From positions 1 to 22,688 of IMG/VR virus record IMGVR_UViG_3300024999_000422: 22,688 bases of DNA. One strand, written 5' to 3'. This stretch comes from a virus. The stretch's first letter is position 1; every line of letters begins with the position of its first letter. The notes under the pieces were generated by a model, which was not told where the DNA came from, searched no databases, and saw nothing but the letters and a program-made list of their open reading frames with translations. The position numbers were made by a program, and so were the translations under genes. Shown one piece after another: positions 1 to 7,198 of the stretch.

Positions 1-955
1 GATTGTTTCTTCTTAATATAAGCATACCACTAGGTACTGTAAAGCAATATTTAAATCCATCTAATGTTTTATATTGTTCTATTTTAGTAATAGTATGGTC
101 TTCTCTTCTATCCGTACATAAACTTATTAAGTTTCTTCTTGTAAATTGAACACCATATTCAATGGATTTTCTTATGTATACTTTATTTGCAGTGATATAT
201 TCTTGATTTACTCTATCTAGGGTATCAATGGTCGCTTTATAGCCGCAAACAACACCTACGAACTGTATAAAATCCGCATCTGATTTTATTGTTGTAAACC
301 ATCTATTTTTCCTTTTAAATTCTCCATCCCAATAAAATATTTCATCATAGATAATTTCGAATTGCTCTTTTGAACAATCGTACCATTTGCTTGTAAAGGT
401 TTTCTCGTTGTCTTTATAATAAAATTTATATACATTGTATCCTTCTGCTCCATTTAATATTTCATATTCAATATTATTTTTTGCTAAGAGATATTCAATT
501 CTTTCTTTTTTCCTTTGCTTCTTAACATTAATATAACAATCAAAAGGTTTATACTTTTTACTTTTAAAACTACCATCTGCCTTTATAGCTACCTTTAATC
601 GGATTTCCCATTCATTATAAGGCAACCCTTTTCCTTCATAGTTAAATGTTGTAATGAATTTTCCTTTAAATCCAGTCTGTTCATGATTTTCTTTAACTTC
701 CTTAAAGGACTTATGATAAAGATTATTTTTTGATGTAATGTAATAAACTTCATGCTCATCAGACAAACATTGATCTAGCCCATATTTTGTTTTGAAATTC
801 CATAAGTAATCTGACTTATACTTGTGAAATTGTGAAGGAATAACCAATTCGGCGGTTTTGCTTTTATTATATTGTAAAACATACTCCCCACTTTGATATT
901 CTAAAATCTTTTTCCATTCAGTTCCATTAAAGTATTCTGTGTCACAATCAACGCA
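1..955 (-). mobile_element. Intein with LAGLIDADG endonuclease domain, inserted in the helicase P-loop (last residues off window)
   Basis: In-frame protein-splicing element. The N-terminal splicing block starts at Cys368 (codon 953-955) with CVDCDTEYFNGTEW, directly after host residues GSAG. A His-containing stretch (QCLSDEHEVYYI) follows. The first LAGLIDADG-type motif is LKVAIKADGSF (Asp494) and the second is IYDEIFYWDGEF (Asp577), both with the catalytic Asp in place. The C-terminal block reads YCFTVPSGMLILRRNN at the window edge. By comparison with other phage inteins, only the last few residues (ending His-Asn plus Cys, Ser or Thr of the C-extein) should be missing. The frame has no stop or shift, so both splicing and homing functions look intact. 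The visible intein is 318 codons. Insertion at Walker A is a known favoured intein site in ATPases. Confidence 0.9.
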
Positions 956-2056
956 CCCCGCCGAACCAGTTAAAGCTAAGATATTTTTATCTATCATTAT
1001 CTTAATTGTCTCAATTTGTTCAGGAGTAAATTCATATCCTTGTTCTTTTTCAACTTCCTTTATAACATCGTCCCAATTTTCGATCTCAAATGGTTCACTG
1101 CGTTCTGCATTAAGTAGCCTAATCAGTTCATTATAGATATTCATCTCTAAATCATAATATCTCTTCAATCCAATAAGTTGACCATCACTAGATACATTAA
1201 TTTCTTTCTTATCAAGTAGTTGTTTTGCAACATCATTGATTATATCTTGCTCAATAAATCCAATTTGATCAAAAACAATATTCATTAATTCACTAAAATG
1301 TAAGTAACTCCTTCCTATTTCTCCGTTCTCAGATAATGTGTTTATAATACACGCTTTAACTCGTCTTGAATCATTACCCGTCATACCAATTTTCTGTGCA
1401 ATTTCATCGGCCTTTTTGAACCCTAATCCACTCACCTCAACTAATTTATATGGATTACTTTTAACAATATCAACCACTATATCGGGAGATTTATAAAAAT
1501 CTAATAATTTATTTATTAGATTTGCACTTAGGTTGGCATTGCTCAATTCTGTATAAATTTGAGAATAATCTTTACAATCTTCAAATTCTTCAATTATTCT
1601 CATGGCGGTAGCATGACCTATTCCATTAATTGACGTAAGTGCGGAAATGTCTTTATCTTCTAATAATGTAATTACATCATCATACTTTTCAAATAATTTA
1701 TATACTATATTTGGATTAATTATACCTTCTAAAAAATCAATTTGTTGTGACTTATTAGTTAAATCTATTTTCTTATTGATAAAAAGTATTTCATATGTGT
1801 CTCCATGTGTTTCATTTCTTTCAGCCAATTTACAAGCAACTTTATATGTTACATAACTTTCTAATTTGCATACTTTACCTTTTAATTTAATTTTCGATTT
1901 TCCCCAAAGTAATTTAAGGTCTTCGCAGTTTTCAATTTTGTTAACTATGTTAGCTACGAAAATGGCAAATTCGCCACTTTCCACTTCGAATCTTAATTTG
2001 GGGAAGAATATTCTATCTAACTCTATTTCACATTTTAATATTTTTTCATTTTCCAT
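1..2056 (-). CDS. recD2: RecD2-like helicase interrupted by an intein (3' end outside window)
   Basis: The reading frame is open for 685 codons from ATG 2056-2054 to the window edge, so the protein is incomplete. The start follows AAGGGGG and lies 15 bases after the polymerase stop. Residues 1-367 are the N-terminal host part. They include helix-hairpin-helix-like stretches (SINGIGHATAMRI and EVSGLGFKKADEIA), as expected ahead of the motor in the RecD2/RecD-like superfamily 1B 5'-3' DNA helicases. A Q-motif (FTPEQIETI) follows, then ILALTGSAG, the first half of a Walker A loop. At residue 368 the loop is broken by Cys and intein sequence, and the missing GK(S/T) and all later helicase motifs must lie beyond position 1. 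The role inferred is unwinding or processing of DNA during phage replication or recombination. The gene is last in the visible replication operon. The helicase family is fairly sure; RecD2 rather than another RecD-like branch is inference. Confidence 0.85.
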   Translation of the reverse strand, partial: MENEKILKCEIELDRIFFPKLRFEVESGEFAIFVANIVNKIENCEDLKLLWGKSKIKLKGKVCKLESYVTYKVACKLAERNETHGDTYEILFINKKIDLTNKSQQIDFLEGIINPNIVYKLFEKYDDVITLLEDKDISALTSINGIGHATAMRIIEEFEDCKDYSQIYTELSNANLSANLINKLLDFYKSPDIVVDIVKSNPYKLVEVSGLGFKKADEIAQKIGMTGNDSRRVKACIINTLSENGEIGRSYLHFSELMNIVFDQIGFIEQDIINDVAKQLLDKKEINVSSDGQLIGLKRYYDLEMNIYNELIRLLNAERSEPFEIENWDDVIKEVEKEQGYEFTPEQIETIKIMIDKNILALTGSAGCVDCDTEYFNGTEWKKILEYQSGEYVLQYNKSKTAELVIPSQFHKYKSDYLWNFKTKYGLDQCLSDEHEVYYITSKNNLYHKSFKEVKENHEQTGFKGKFITTFNYEGKGLPYNEWEIRLKVAIKADGSFKSKKYKPFDCYINVKKQRKKERIEYLLAKNNIEYEILNGAEGYNVYKFYYKDNEKTFTSKWYDCSKEQFEIIYDEIFYWDGEFKRKNRWFTTIKSDADFIQFVGVVCGYKATIDTLDRVNQEYITANKVYIRKSIEYGVQFTRRNLISLCTDRREDHTITKIEQYKTLDGFKYCFTVPSGMLILRRNN

Positions 2057-2071
2057 AGTATCCCCCTTAAA

Positions 2072-4567
2072 TTATACGCTTACTCTTTCTTCTTGAACTA
2101 TAATTTCACCATTGTCCATCAGTCTTGTGATTTTCATAATTGTATGTTGGAATACTGAGTTTTTATATTTTCTTGGCTTAAATTGATCTCCTAATCTGAA
2201 ACCATAGACCATCATGAGCGTTCCTCTTTTGAACCAAGATTCCTCTATTCTCTTCTTCTTACCATCTTCTTTAATTTCTGATATAGTTTTGTTGTAATGA
2301 TTGAACGAGCCATCATACATCTTACAAGTTACTACTCCACTTGGGGTTAATAATTCTACTGTATGTTTTGTCTTATCTCTGTCTAATACAGTGCCCATTA
2401 TTAACGATAATTTATATCTATTGAATGGTCTTCCTCTGTAAAAACCAGTTTCATTAGCAATCGGATCTTCAGGCAAATCATAAAAGTTTTCAATTGTATA
2501 TCGTTTGGTATTTACTTTAGATAGCTCATGCTCTGTTTTATAGTAGCTCATGCTATCCATCTCCCACTTTGCTATACTTCCTTTACAATATTTGTCATAT
2601 GCTTCTTTGTATACTATTGCATTGTATTTATTAACAACCTCTTTGTCTTTTAGGAGCATAGTAATCTTCTCAATTTTCTTATCCAACGCTTTCTTAATCT
2701 TACCTTTATGCACTATATATGTTCCAAAATCTATTTGGACATAATCTAAATCTTCCTTCATCTCATTATACTTATCTAAAAATACATCTAGTATATTGTT
2801 ACTAATATAGAACCAATCACTTTTTAAACCATCCGGCAATTTGTCTTTAGGAACTAAATTGGGTTTCGTGCATATTGCTTTATAAATGTTATAATAAATT
2901 ATTTCATCTTCGTATGTTTTAGAGATTAAACCACTGTCAATTAACATAGGAATGTTTGCTAGAGAAAATGAATCCTTTAATTCTACAATTGAATTAATAT
3001 ATTGATTCATCAAGTTAATCCTATCTCCAAAAGAATCTAAGGCACCACACTTAATTAGATTTACTACCGCATTTTTTGCTAATTGTTTGCCACTTCTTTC
3101 AATAAAATCTTCATAAGAATTAAATGGCCTATTGTTTAAAATAGTTTCAATATCTTCAGAACCAACTTCTGATAATGCTCTCAACCCGTATAATATTTTA
3201 TTTTCATATATCGTAAACGCTTCCTTGGAATAATTAATATTTGGAGAATCTACAATATCATTCATTTCTGAAACTGCTTTAGCAATCTTTCCATAGTTAG
3301 TGGTTTTTCCATCTCCAATTGCCCCTGAATTTACAGTTAGGCAAGCACATTTCCAATACATATGTCCATAAACATGAGCTAAATTCATCTCTTGAACTAA
3401 AATCCCTGTATACGGATTTGTATGATTTTTCGAGAAACTATATCCCAAGGATGGGGTTATTTGTAAATTCCAAACATAATCTAAAAATATCCTTCTGGTT
3501 CCATTCTTCAAACCCTCTTCAAAGAAAAGCATTTTAGAATCTTCGATAGTCTTTTTACTTTTTTTACTAATTCCTTTTCTCAATTTATTTGCATGAGTAA
3601 GACTAAAGTTAACTATTCCTTTGTCCATGGTTAATTCCATGACTACTTCTTGTGTATCAGCAAGCCCATATAAAGGTAATAAATGAGGTTCTAGTATACT
3701 TATCTCTTCTTCATTTAGTCCATACTCTCTCATTTCTTGATACCATAAACTAATATCATTCTTAAATCTAACATATTTGTCTAATGGTTGCTCTCCTCCC
3801 TTATTGGCTAACCTCATTAGAGAATTTCCTGTAACTAATTCTAGAAAGTTTTGTGGGTGTATTTTACTTAATGCTTGTTTGCCCACAGATCCTTCATACT
3901 GGAAGGCATTTACAACATCTCCATTATACAAAAGTTTCCACATTTCTTTATCTGTATAATCTATAACGTCAGGATGTAAATAGTGATTATAAGTATTTCT
4001 CAAACTTCCTTTCCATTCCATTTTCCCCTCTTCTACTAAAACATCCATACAAGTTCTCATACGATCTAATGATTCAATTGTTAGTGCATCAAATTTTAAT
4101 CCTCCTGTATATTCACTGTCACCTAAGTTCCAACAAGTAATGTCATCTCCATTGGGTGCTTTCATTAGGGAATTTTGTTCAATAAATCCATTGGGGAATA
4201 TGATAATACCACTTGCATGAATACTTCTACCAACAATCAATCCTTCTAATTCTAGGGCCGTTTCTCTCAATTGAGGGTAATTCTCTAATAGATTTATTAG
4301 TTCTCTGATGGGTTTTCTTTCCTCTTCTTCATTTCCAAATAAACAATCATTTAAACTCCATTGTGCTCCTCTTTCAATTGGAATCATATCAGACATTGCT
4401 TGAATTTCATCGTAATTGTAGTTCAATCCTCTACCTGCAGTAAGAATAGCCAATTTGGGTTTCAGTGTTTTAAAAGTAGCTACATTTAAAGTATTTTCAT
4501 ATCCATATTTCTCCTTGATTGCCTTTAGGATATTCCCTCTTTGTGCTGCTTCTGTATCCACATCAAT
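2072..4567 (-). CDS. dnaE: DNA polymerase III alpha subunit (DnaE type), exon 2
   Basis: C-terminal exon of the replicative polymerase, about 831 residues, joined in frame to the exon at 5855-7198 after removal of a group I intron. It begins IDVDTEAAQRGNI, the catalytic Asp-x-Asp of the family C palm domain. The third catalytic Asp is in GLKFDALTIESL. Later parts match a tandem helix-hairpin-helix segment (VVNLIKCGALDSFGDR) and a C-terminal OB-like region (around PSGVVTCKMYDG). A GTG at 4559-4561 lies in frame, but no convincing ribosome binding site precedes it. I infer that this exon is expressed only as part of the spliced message. The joined protein would be about 1279 residues, within the range for phage and bacterial DnaE. 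The gene lies between recJ-like and recD2-like genes. Confidence 0.92.
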   Translation of the reverse strand: MDVDTEAAQRGNILKAIKEKYGYENTLNVATFKTLKPKLAILTAGRGLNYNYDEIQAMSDMIPIERGAQWSLNDCLFGNEEEERKPIRELINLLENYPQLRETALELEGLIVGRSIHASGIIIFPNGFIEQNSLMKAPNGDDITCWNLGDSEYTGGLKFDALTIESLDRMRTCMDVLVEEGKMEWKGSLRNTYNHYLHPDVIDYTDKEMWKLLYNGDVVNAFQYEGSVGKQALSKIHPQNFLELVTGNSLMRLANKGGEQPLDKYVRFKNDISLWYQEMREYGLNEEEISILEPHLLPLYGLADTQEVVMELTMDKGIVNFSLTHANKLRKGISKKSKKTIEDSKMLFFEEGLKNGTRRIFLDYVWNLQITPSLGYSFSKNHTNPYTGILVQEMNLAHVYGHMYWKCACLTVNSGAIGDGKTTNYGKIAKAVSEMNDIVDSPNINYSKEAFTIYENKILYGLRALSEVGSEDIETILNNRPFNSYEDFIERSGKQLAKNAVVNLIKCGALDSFGDRINLMNQYINSIVELKDSFSLANIPMLIDSGLISKTYEDEIIYYNIYKAICTKPNLVPKDKLPDGLKSDWFYISNNILDVFLDKYNEMKEDLDYVQIDFGTYIVHKGKIKKALDKKIEKITMLLKDKEVVNKYNAIVYKEAYDKYCKGSIAKWEMDSMSYYKTEHELSKVNTKRYTIENFYDLPEDPIANETGFYRGRPFNRYKLSLIMGTVLDRDKTKHTVELLTPSGVVTCKMYDGSFNHYNKTISEIKEDGKKKRIEESWFKRGTLMMVYGFRLGDQFKPRKYKNSVFQHTIMKITRLMDNGEIIVQEERVSV

Positions 4568-5854
4568 CGGTTACACCCTAGCTTTCGCTATATTTTCACA
4601 CTCAATTAAGAGTGGGACTAGACTATATCTTCACCTTCCGACCTTTACGGCTAAGGTGTTCCGCACTTCGAATGGTAGTATCCCCACCCTACTCTCCCTT
4701 GAGATAGTCGTTGCACCTTCCTTATTATTTCTAATAAGACTTGGCACAGGATTGCCATATCATTTCTGACTTAGGTTTCCCCTGTTAGCATATTCATTAA
4801 CACTCATTTCCTAGTGCTACTAATCGTTGAATACACACCCTATTACAATCTAGGTTCACGGAAATTAACATCTACTATTTCTAATAGACTCGACTTAGAC
4901 TCTCTCTTGTTGTTGATATGCCTCTTTTACTTCTTTGTATTTTTCATATTTTCTGTCTAAATAAATTGTGGCATTTTTATAAAGTGTATCTAGTATTCTT
5001 AATACTTGAATGTTTCCACCAACATTAAAAGAATAGTTGTTTGTGCCTTTTTCTGGATGTCTTTGATGAGATTTCAAATGTGGAATATTTAAAAAAACTC
5101 TTTATTCCGTCGATTAATTCTTTCGTACCTACTAGACCCAAACCAATATTGATTTTATTATTAGGTTTGCAGTAATAACTTATACTCCCATCTCCATCAA
5201 TATATCCTCTGACAAAGTGGTGGATTAAATATTGAGGAACTTGATTTTCCTTTGGAAACAACAGAACGTTAGATTTTTTGGTTACACAACCTTGTTTTAT
5301 TAAATCATTAGATAATTTATTACTGGCAATTAAAATTCTGCAATATGGTTTACTGTTAAAATCCCCTTTCGTTTCATAAGTAGATATGTTTGCTGTTGAT
5401 TTTAGACTATTCTTAAATTTCTCAATATGTGAAATGTCACTTGCCGTTAAAGTGATACCAACACTATATCCACTATGTTTTCTCTTATTCAGAATATAGC
5501 CATCAGCATACATAAACCCTAACCAGTATGCTTTTTCTTCTGTGTTAATTATTTCAAAAAAGTCTTCATTACAAATACTTTTTAAAGCTTGCTCCCTATC
5601 TGTACGGATAGGAATATTATATTCTTTCATTAAATGGGAAATTAATTTTTGACTACATTTCATCAATTCACCAATTTTAGTCTGAGATAGACCTTCATTG
5701 TATTTGCTTTTAATGAAATCTATATGATTATCTGTAATAACCGGGGGAGTATTTAAACCATTTAATCTTTCAAATATCAATTTTTTCACCTCCTTTCAAT
5801 ATATTTTCTACAAAGAAGTAATATTACTATATCACGACAATAGATAATCTCTTA
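4568..5854 (-). ncRNA. Group I self-splicing intron in the DNA polymerase gene
   Basis: A 1287-base insertion splits the polymerase frame. Exon 1 ends ...GAT (5855-5857) followed by in-frame TAA, and exon 2 resumes with ATT GAT GTG GAT at 4567. These boundaries give an uninterrupted ELAD-IDVD protein and obey the group I rule of T before the 5' splice site and G (4568) as last intron base. The catalytic core lies in the 3' 327 bases. P4 pairs ACAGG (4781-4785) with CCTGT (4746-4750) inside the Q-like AATCCTGTGCCAAG (4740-4753). P7 pairs GACTAT (R, near 4703-4716) with ATAGTC in AAGATATAGTC (S, near 4621-4631). A P6a hairpin (TCTTATT/AATAAGG) lies between Q and R. The extra sequence between the P7 strands fits subgroup IA, which is common in phages. 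I did not identify a convincing P1. The 5' part holds the endonuclease gene. Confidence 0.9.
4895..5780 (-). pseudogene. Intron-encoded LAGLIDADG homing endonuclease, frameshifted
   Basis: The upstream frame carries a DNA-binding helix-turn-helix-like segment (LSQTKIGELMKCSQKLISHL), then two LAGLIDADG motifs, YWLGFMYADGYI and FVRGYIDGDGSI, each with its catalytic acid. Such enzymes cut the intronless allele to spread the intron. The frame stops at 5025. The expected C-terminal part (YSFNVGGNIQVLRILDTLYKNA and beyond) continues in another frame to the TAA at 4895. Removing one T from the seven-T coding run (A7 at 5091-5097 on the plus strand) restores one frame of about 294 residues. The start is probably TTG 5778-5780, eight bases after AGGAGG. 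The GTG at 5787-5789 overlaps that site and is unlikely. The gene is either inactivated, rescued by slippage at the homopolymer, or affected by a sequencing error. Confidence 0.85.
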
Positions 5855-7198
5855 ATCTGCAAGCTCCGGCTTACTGCTATGAATGTGTCTCCAACTAGGT
5901 AGATTGAATGTGATGGGGTTCATTTGAGTAATATCAATTAGATAAGCAAGGTATAGTCCCGTAACGCTACCTCTCGCGATTCCTACGAGACTTAAATTCC
6001 ACATTAGATCCACTAAATCTTTTGTTAAGCAATAATAACTACTTAAACGTTGATTAATTTTCTCACTTATCAACCAAAGTTGTTTTAATTCTTCTTCAAT
6101 TCTATCCATGTTTACTTTATCAAAATCTTGATTTTTATTCGTCATTCCTTCTTGAGTTAAGAATAATAAATATCTGTCTACTAAATAATCACTATAGTAA
6201 AATTTCTTAATGTACTCATATTTGTCTGTATAATTTTTCATTATATGGTTATCATCAAAGATTGGTATTTGAGTTGGAGGAACCACAGGATCTTGTGCTA
6301 AATCATAAAACTCAATTTTATTAGCAATTTCCAAAGTGTTGTTAGTCATTGTTTCAAAAGTTTGCTCACTAATATAGTCTTTAAAATACCCCCAAACTTC
6401 TTCTTTGGTCATTACATAAGTAGATCCGTAGAAGTCTGAAACCTCTCTTTCCCCATCTTTAGAGTTCAAAAAGGATTTATGAATTTGTTTATGATTTATA
6501 GACAAATAGTGAGAATCTGTAGTATAGATAACTTTAATATTGTATTTTTCTCCCAATTCAATGACAAATTTATTGTAATCAATTTGTTCTTGAGTTGATA
6601 ATGATGGTTGAATTTCCAAGTAGAAATCATCATTAAAGACATATTTACAAGCATTTAAAAAACTATCTATATCCTTCAACGCTTCTGGTTTGTTGGTCTG
6701 AAACTCTTTAAATTTCAGACCAACAAACCCTCCTAAACATGCTGTGCTACCAATTACATGACCTTTATATTCAGCCATCACCTCCACCAACTGTTGTGTG
6801 GTTAAAGGGGTTCTTTCCATTCTTCCAGTCCTAAATGAATTCATCCAAGCTAATGTTGACATTTTTCTTAGAGCTAGATGCCCTTCTCTTGACTTTGCAA
6901 TGAGGATAAAATGAGGGAATTTAGTGACTCCTGAAGTGTAATTATCTTTAACTTCTTCCAAACTATTTACAAGATATATTTCGTTACCAAGAGCAACTTG
7001 AAAGTCAGGATTTATTTTTTGTAATTCTTTATTGATTTTAATTGCTTCAATGTGAGCCGAAAGACACTCATGATCGGTTATTGCAATTCCTTTTAAACCA
7101 ATTTTTTCTGCATATTTAATCAAGTTTTTAGTTTTATTGGTACAGTCTGGTAGGCGTAAATTCGACATCTCTGTATGTGAATGTGCTGAAAAATACAA
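5855..7198 (-). CDS. dnaE: DNA polymerase III alpha subunit (DnaE type), exon 1
   Basis: The N-terminal 448 residues of the replicative polymerase. The start is TTG 7196-7198, after AGAAGGTGA. The PHP domain is evident from HSH (residues 6-8), ITDHE (40-44) and, later, YTTDSHYL; in this family it is a metal-dependent exonuclease or a remnant of one. The exon runs into the palm with GIARGSVTGLYLAYLI, the conserved ARGS motif that contacts incoming nucleotide, and ends ...KPELAD. The unspliced frame meets TAA at 5852-5854. The catalytic Asp-x-Asp motif is therefore supplied entirely by exon 2, and without splicing the product cannot polymerise DNA. The gene follows the recJ-like gene by 14 bases in the same operon. 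Confidence 0.93.

Follow-up and report, generated by a model that had tools for sequence, protein, structure and literature searches.

Group I introns with homing endonucleases at conserved codons of phage replicase genes have long been known, for example in SPO1 and Bastille (PMC2814812, PMC3984707, PMC11878797). In SPO1, Bastille and Pf-WMP3, as in the locus described here, an intron with a homing endonuclease (I-HmuI, I-BasI and I-PfoP3I) lies in a conserved stretch of the replicase gene (PMC2814812, PMC3428280, PMC11878797). These three introns, however, interrupt an unrelated family-A DNA polymerase and encode HNH nicking endonucleases, whereas the present one interrupts a gene for DnaE and carries a LAGLIDADG endonuclease gene. 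Splicing was proven by experiment for SPO1 and Bastille, whereas splicing of the 1287-nt intron reported here is deduced from sequence.

The analyzed DNA, hereafter the window, is the whole 22,688-nt stretch of the IMG/VR virus record IMGVR_UViG_3300024999_000422. We consider it highly likely, with a probability of about 0.93, that the interruption is a self-splicing group I intron of the IA type, which carries a LAGLIDADG endonuclease gene and lies between the D401 and D403 codons of a phage DnaE replicase. Introns at the very same dnaE site are present in public records of other phages. A literature search of incomplete coverage found no paper that described introns at this site.

Insertion point in the dnaE gene

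The DnaE gene extends from 7198 to 2072 on the minus strand. Exon 1 (5855 to 7198, minus strand), delimited by its frame, Pfam matches and structure alignment, encodes aa 1-448 with the PHP domain and the first part of the palm, and ends with SSKPELAD. Exon 2 (2072 to 4567, minus strand) encodes aa 449-1279 and begins with IDVDTEAAQRG. Pfam assigned PHP to exon 1, finger and HHH_6 to exon 2, and DNA_pol3_alpha to both. The 1287-nt intron between them (4568 to 5854, minus strand; U/TAAGAG...GTAACCG/A, with slashes marking the splice sites) was delimited by the Rfam match, the restored frame and the alignment to empty sites. The junction on the minus strand reads GAG CTT GCA GAT (ending at 5855)/TAAGAG...GTAACCG/ATT GAT GTG GAT (from 4567), and excision of the intron produces a single open DnaE frame of 1279 aa. 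A sequence-only reading of this DNA had placed the cut between ELAD and IDVD, and its coordinates were correct to the base. It had also invoked the T...G edge rule of group I introns, and both the U before the 5ʹ splice site and the intron-terminal G are present.

Three relatives in IMG/VR (L010, L011 and L012) possess an uninterrupted DnaE, the aligned part of which is 92.6-96.9% identical in amino-acid sequence to that of the window. The joined junction of the window aligned with them over 600 nt without a gap at 92.8-94.2% DNA identity. This collinearity across the junction indicates that the exon boundaries are exact. DnaE was likewise uninterrupted in the more distant relatives L013-L017. 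YorL of SPBc2 (SPbeta), the type of uninterrupted DnaE to which the sequence-only reading had proposed an alignment, aligned over its whole length at 43.5% identity and showed no insert. DNA identity to the relatives peaked just downstream of the insertion site (97-100%). A co-conversion tract was considered as the cause, but the intron-less relatives showed the same peak among themselves, and thus we make no claim of co-conversion. A single scan of genome contigs returned distant DnaE only (27-28%) and no host.

A second interrupted gene was noticed in the window. The RecD2-like helicase gene (2 to 2056, minus strand) has its P-loop split (ALTGSAG/CVDCDTEYFNG) by an apparent Hint-type intein that runs past the window end. 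No Hint profile match was obtained for this insert, and its resemblance to an intein was judged by eye from the translation.

The aspartates D401, D403 and D555 are the catalytic residues of all C-family polymerases (PMC8485763, PMC3919608). In gapless alignment to the E. coli and Taq DnaE structures, the last codon of exon 1, GAT at 5857-5855, corresponded to E. coli D401 and the second codon of exon 2 to D403. The intron therefore separates the two residues of D-x-D and is located one codon downstream of the position directly before Asp-x-Asp that had been suggested. Exon 1 alone lacks the catalytic Asp pair, as had been noted; the pair is divided, and neither exon holds both residues. The first codon past exon 1 is an in-frame TAA, at which an unspliced message would stop immediately, giving a 448-aa fragment that ends at the first catalytic Asp and has no active site. 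That the insert is a group I intron and that an intact active site requires its splicing, both proposed from the sequence alone, are supported by the Rfam match, the restored frame, the exact empty sites and the compensatory pairing of P3 described below. It is a reasonable inference that phage replication depends on splicing; a host polymerase could substitute.

Ribozyme core and endonuclease gene

The covariance search with the Rfam model Intron_gpI (RF00028), which had been proposed as a check, matched 4857 to 4600 on the minus strand over the full length of the model (63 bits against a curated cut-off of 50, E=4.6e-14). This was the sole Rfam match in the window. The P4, Q, R, P7 and S elements that had been read by eye were located by Rfam and RNAalifold, all on the minus strand: the P4-P5 domain at 4746-4785 (P4, ACAGG with CCUGU; Q-type CAAUCCUGUGCC), P6/P6a at 4720-4745 (GCC...; UCUUAUU with AAUAAGG), the P7 5ʹ strand GACUA (R element) at 4705-4709 and the P7 3ʹ strand UAGUC (S element) at 4621-4625. 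P9 was also recovered, and the P9 and P9.1 hairpins occupy 4576-4616. On the same strand are the P2 hairpin GUCUAUUA-GAAA-UAGUAGAU at 4870-4889 and P8 (CACCUU with AAGGUG) at 4632-4658. Two further hairpins, P7.1 (4704-4693) and P7.2 (4692-4674), were recognized from the sequence and occupy 4674-4704 of the minus strand. P7.1/P7.2 hairpins between the P7 5ʹ strand and the P3 3ʹ strand are typical of subgroup IA, and they suggest that the intron is of the IA type.

RNAalifold on a MAFFT alignment of the cores recovered only P4-P7 and P9.1, because P2 and P3 were not alignable. P3, which no model had assigned, was then sought by motif: its strands were taken as the six nucleotides before the conserved UGAA(C/U) and the six nucleotides after the conserved GAAGUG. 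In the window the strands are UUCCG (4859-4863, minus strand) and CGGAA (4659-4663, minus strand, after GAAGUG); elsewhere they are AGCAUG with CAUGCU, AGACGG with CCGUCU, AACUGG with CCAGUU, and UUGAUG with CAUCGA. Across 12 introns of the DnaE gene, 66 of 72 positions paired while the strand sequences varied freely. When strands were re-paired between introns, the mean was 37 and the maximum 58, and none of 20,000 trials reached 66; neither did any in a control in which the best candidate was chosen per intron. The intron thus has the P3/P7 pseudoknot together with P4, P6 and P8, which is the group I core. Rfam scans of the DnaE introns of other phages gave no match at the gathering thresholds, nor at E up to 1. 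We did not read this as a lack of introns, because BLAST and the P3 test tie them to the intron of the window.

The fold is weakest at P1, where the exon pairing is 3 bp and alternatives compete. By analogy with L007, L045 and L047, we propose an internal guide GUCG at 4891-4894 (minus strand), between the endonuclease stop, which it directly follows, and the P2 hairpin. Three exon pairs can form between its GUC and the exon GAU, among them a U.G pair at the splice site, and partial pairing of UAAGA with UCUAA would extend the P1 formed with 4894-4891. The assignment of GUCG relies on the clearer arrangement in L007 and L045, where the flank of the 5ʹ splice site is perfectly complementary to the stretch before GUCG, over 19 nt in L007 and 12 nt in L045, with the endonuclease gene between the two. 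The 5ʹ end of the intron in the window (5854-5815, minus strand) also has its own GUCG and a hairpin, GUGAUAU-AGUA-AUAUUAC, as a competing candidate guide besides the copy after the endonuclease. This element resembles the guide-P2 element in the intron of phage SEP9; it may be what is left of an intron that recombined, or it may have arisen by chance.

The main frame of the LAGLIDADG endonuclease (5025 to 5780, minus strand) has a TTG start and a Shine-Dalgarno sequence, AAAGGAGG, at 5796-5789, and the gene probably sits in the P1 loop. It was identified by Pfam LAGLIDADG_3 (32.6 bits against a threshold of 22.5), by PHROG 4645 (E=4e-51) and by two LAGLIDADG-like motifs, WLGFMYADG and FVRGYIDGDG. 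The reading frame is not intact. At a run of seven T (5091-5097, minus strand) it shifts by +1 relative to the C-terminal part, so that the last ~60 codons, ending with NIQVLRILDTLYKNATIYLDRKYEKYKEVKEAYQQQERV and the stop TAA at 4897-4895, are in another frame (4895 to 5090, minus strand). The frame is unbroken across this region in the relatives L007 and L045-L048. Unless the T run reflects an error in sequencing or assembly, the endonuclease of the window is probably inactive, and the frameshift makes present-day mobility of this copy doubtful. Frameshifted endonucleases have precedents in the polymerase introns of phages phiAGATE and Moonbeam (PMC11878797). The constancy of the site across phages suggests that the enzyme would cleave the intron-less dnaE site.

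The same and neighboring sites in other phages

The insertion site, a codon boundary of DnaE that we call site B and that reads PD/[IV]D in other phages, holds an insert in about nine of them, the cultured RQ1 and SEP9 among them. The same endonuclease family was found at site B in Staphylococcus phage RQ1 (L007), L045, L046, L047, L048, L077 and L084, and all endonuclease-bearing introns found at this site carried this LAGLIDADG family. SEP9 (L008) has a site-B intron of 318 nt without an endonuclease, and its dnaE is annotated as a joined CDS. The DnaE of several site-B phages was just ~22-25% identical to that of the window. The occurrence of one endonuclease family at a single codon in very distant phages illustrates well how a known kind of selfish element aims at an unchangeable spot. 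L075 probably also carries the family at site B. Its DnaE has an insert of ~2.4 kb near the site (2691-5160), with one endonuclease of the LAGLIDADG family and an extra AACGACTA motif; this insert may consist of two introns, either consecutive or nested.

A tree was built from 86 members of the family, and one 13-row group in it (support 80/88), the inside of which was open, contained all nine endonucleases of site B. The site-B label required 5 changes on the tree against 8.7 when shuffled, and no shuffle out of 500 was as low. One change, as for a single origin of the site-B endonucleases, was obtained in 0% of bootstrap trees. P4 directly followed the GUGAA joint in L045, L047, L077 and L084, and a longer stretch was present there in the window, RQ1 and SEP9. 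The comparison at site B suggests that the ribozyme may have been exchanged around the endonuclease. A broader proposal, which we offer tentatively and hold to be somewhat short of an even chance, is that one LAGLIDADG group is specialized for the codons of the catalytic Asp pair of DnaE and moves between phages with DnaE identity down to ~22%, with markedly different group I ribozymes at site B through ribozyme exchange and with ribozymes that need little beyond the catalytic GAU for recognition of the 5ʹ exon.

In L098 (DnaE 1208-3871), site B was uninterrupted (ELAD/VDVD), and a relative of the endonuclease was found at 4001, beside a break at about aa 875. This arrangement indicates that the family is also present at other positions of DnaE.

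Introns were also found one codon upstream of site B (LP/DIDID) in PT1-1, a Staphylococcus SPbeta-like phage, EF1, L031, L041 and L043, several with HNH endonucleases, and about eleven codons upstream (WRF) in SpP and L028, with GIY-YIG endonucleases. Together with site B, three endonuclease classes (LAGLIDADG, HNH and GIY-YIG) thus converge on 12 codons, and the three insertion points, at most 12 codons from the DnaE active site, represent a tight convergence on unchangeable residues.

A second hot spot of DnaE insertions was noticed at about aa 823 (QMG/SFSxxH), ~375 codons downstream of the active-site insertions. The inserts contain stops and end with a P7 S-type sequence of group I (GATATAGTC and variants); they are located in L003 (6208-7156), L005 (2948-3888), L006 (3851-4833), L018 (6789-7099), L037 (1526-2714), L038 (5767-6955) and L039 (6780-7935). 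The split-intein junction of cyanobacterial DnaE lies in this motif.

Proposed mechanism, alternatives and known systems

In the proposed mechanism, the ribozyme in the transcript would fold via its P3-P9 core, a guanosine bound in P7 would attack after the exon-1 GAU, and joining of the exons would restore ELAD-IDVD. The endonuclease gene would lie in the P1 loop, flanked by the 5ʹ splice site and the guide, and its product would have propagated the element through cleavage of DnaE genes that lack the intron. The target of this enzyme would be the codons of the active-site motif, which are hard for phages to change.

A degenerate intron of group I origin that has lost splicing would leave truncated PHP-domain and exon-2 fragments and a reliance on another polymerase. 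We regard this as improbable: it would agree with the frameshifted endonuclease and the short exon part of P1, but every helix of the core from P3 to P9 is intact, as are the terminal G and the splice-site U, and both exons are fully open and ~92-97% identical to intron-less homologs, whereas a dead polymerase should have begun decaying. An artefact of assembly or binning, by which an intron contig was joined by chance to a dnaE contig, is conceivable for a metagenomic virus contig with near-identical intron-less alleles. It is nevertheless very improbable, given that the junction is exact to the base, that the same site is filled in about nine other phages including the cultured RQ1 and SEP9, and that the endonuclease falls in the DnaE-site group of the tree. 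DnaE is known to harbor inteins, and the neighboring helicase gene contains an insert that looks like one. For the insert in DnaE, an intein or split-protein insertion can nevertheless be dismissed for practical purposes: its first codon is an in-frame TAA, stops interrupt all frames and none reads through, no Hint domain match was obtained, and the ribozyme fold is clear.

Taken singly, the group I intron of the window is an ordinary element. With the introns described here, C-family replicases, like family-A polymerases, are seen to host introns repeatedly. Closely related phages carry alleles with and without the intron, with which homing and competition between co-infecting phages could be tested directly.

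Among cultured phages, SPbeta has the nearest DnaE family in YorL (~43-44% identity) and the same RecJ-DnaE gene order, but YorL is uninterrupted, unlike the DnaE of the window. The site-A and site-C dnaE introns of Staphylococcus PT1-1, SPbeta-like and SpP and of Enterococcus EF1 are also group I introns and lie at most 12 codons from the same motif, and the 3ʹ ribozyme part of the site-A introns is ~77-83% alike to that of the window over 60 nt. These introns are, however, inserted elsewhere, at LP/DIDID with HNH endonucleases (PT1-1 and EF1) or at WRF with GIY-YIG endonucleases, whereas the intron of the window has a LAGLIDADG endonuclease at ELAD/IDVD. RQ1 (PV344601) and vB_SepS_SEP9 (KF929199) share the identical insertion point, PD/IDID. 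RQ1 has the same LAGLIDADG family in a P1 loop closed by a 19-bp perfect stem, whereas the 318-nt intron of SEP9 lacks an endonuclease, and the ribozyme cores of both are just 51-55% identical to that of the window. The endonuclease is thus intact in RQ1 (~38% identity), broken in the window and absent from SEP9.
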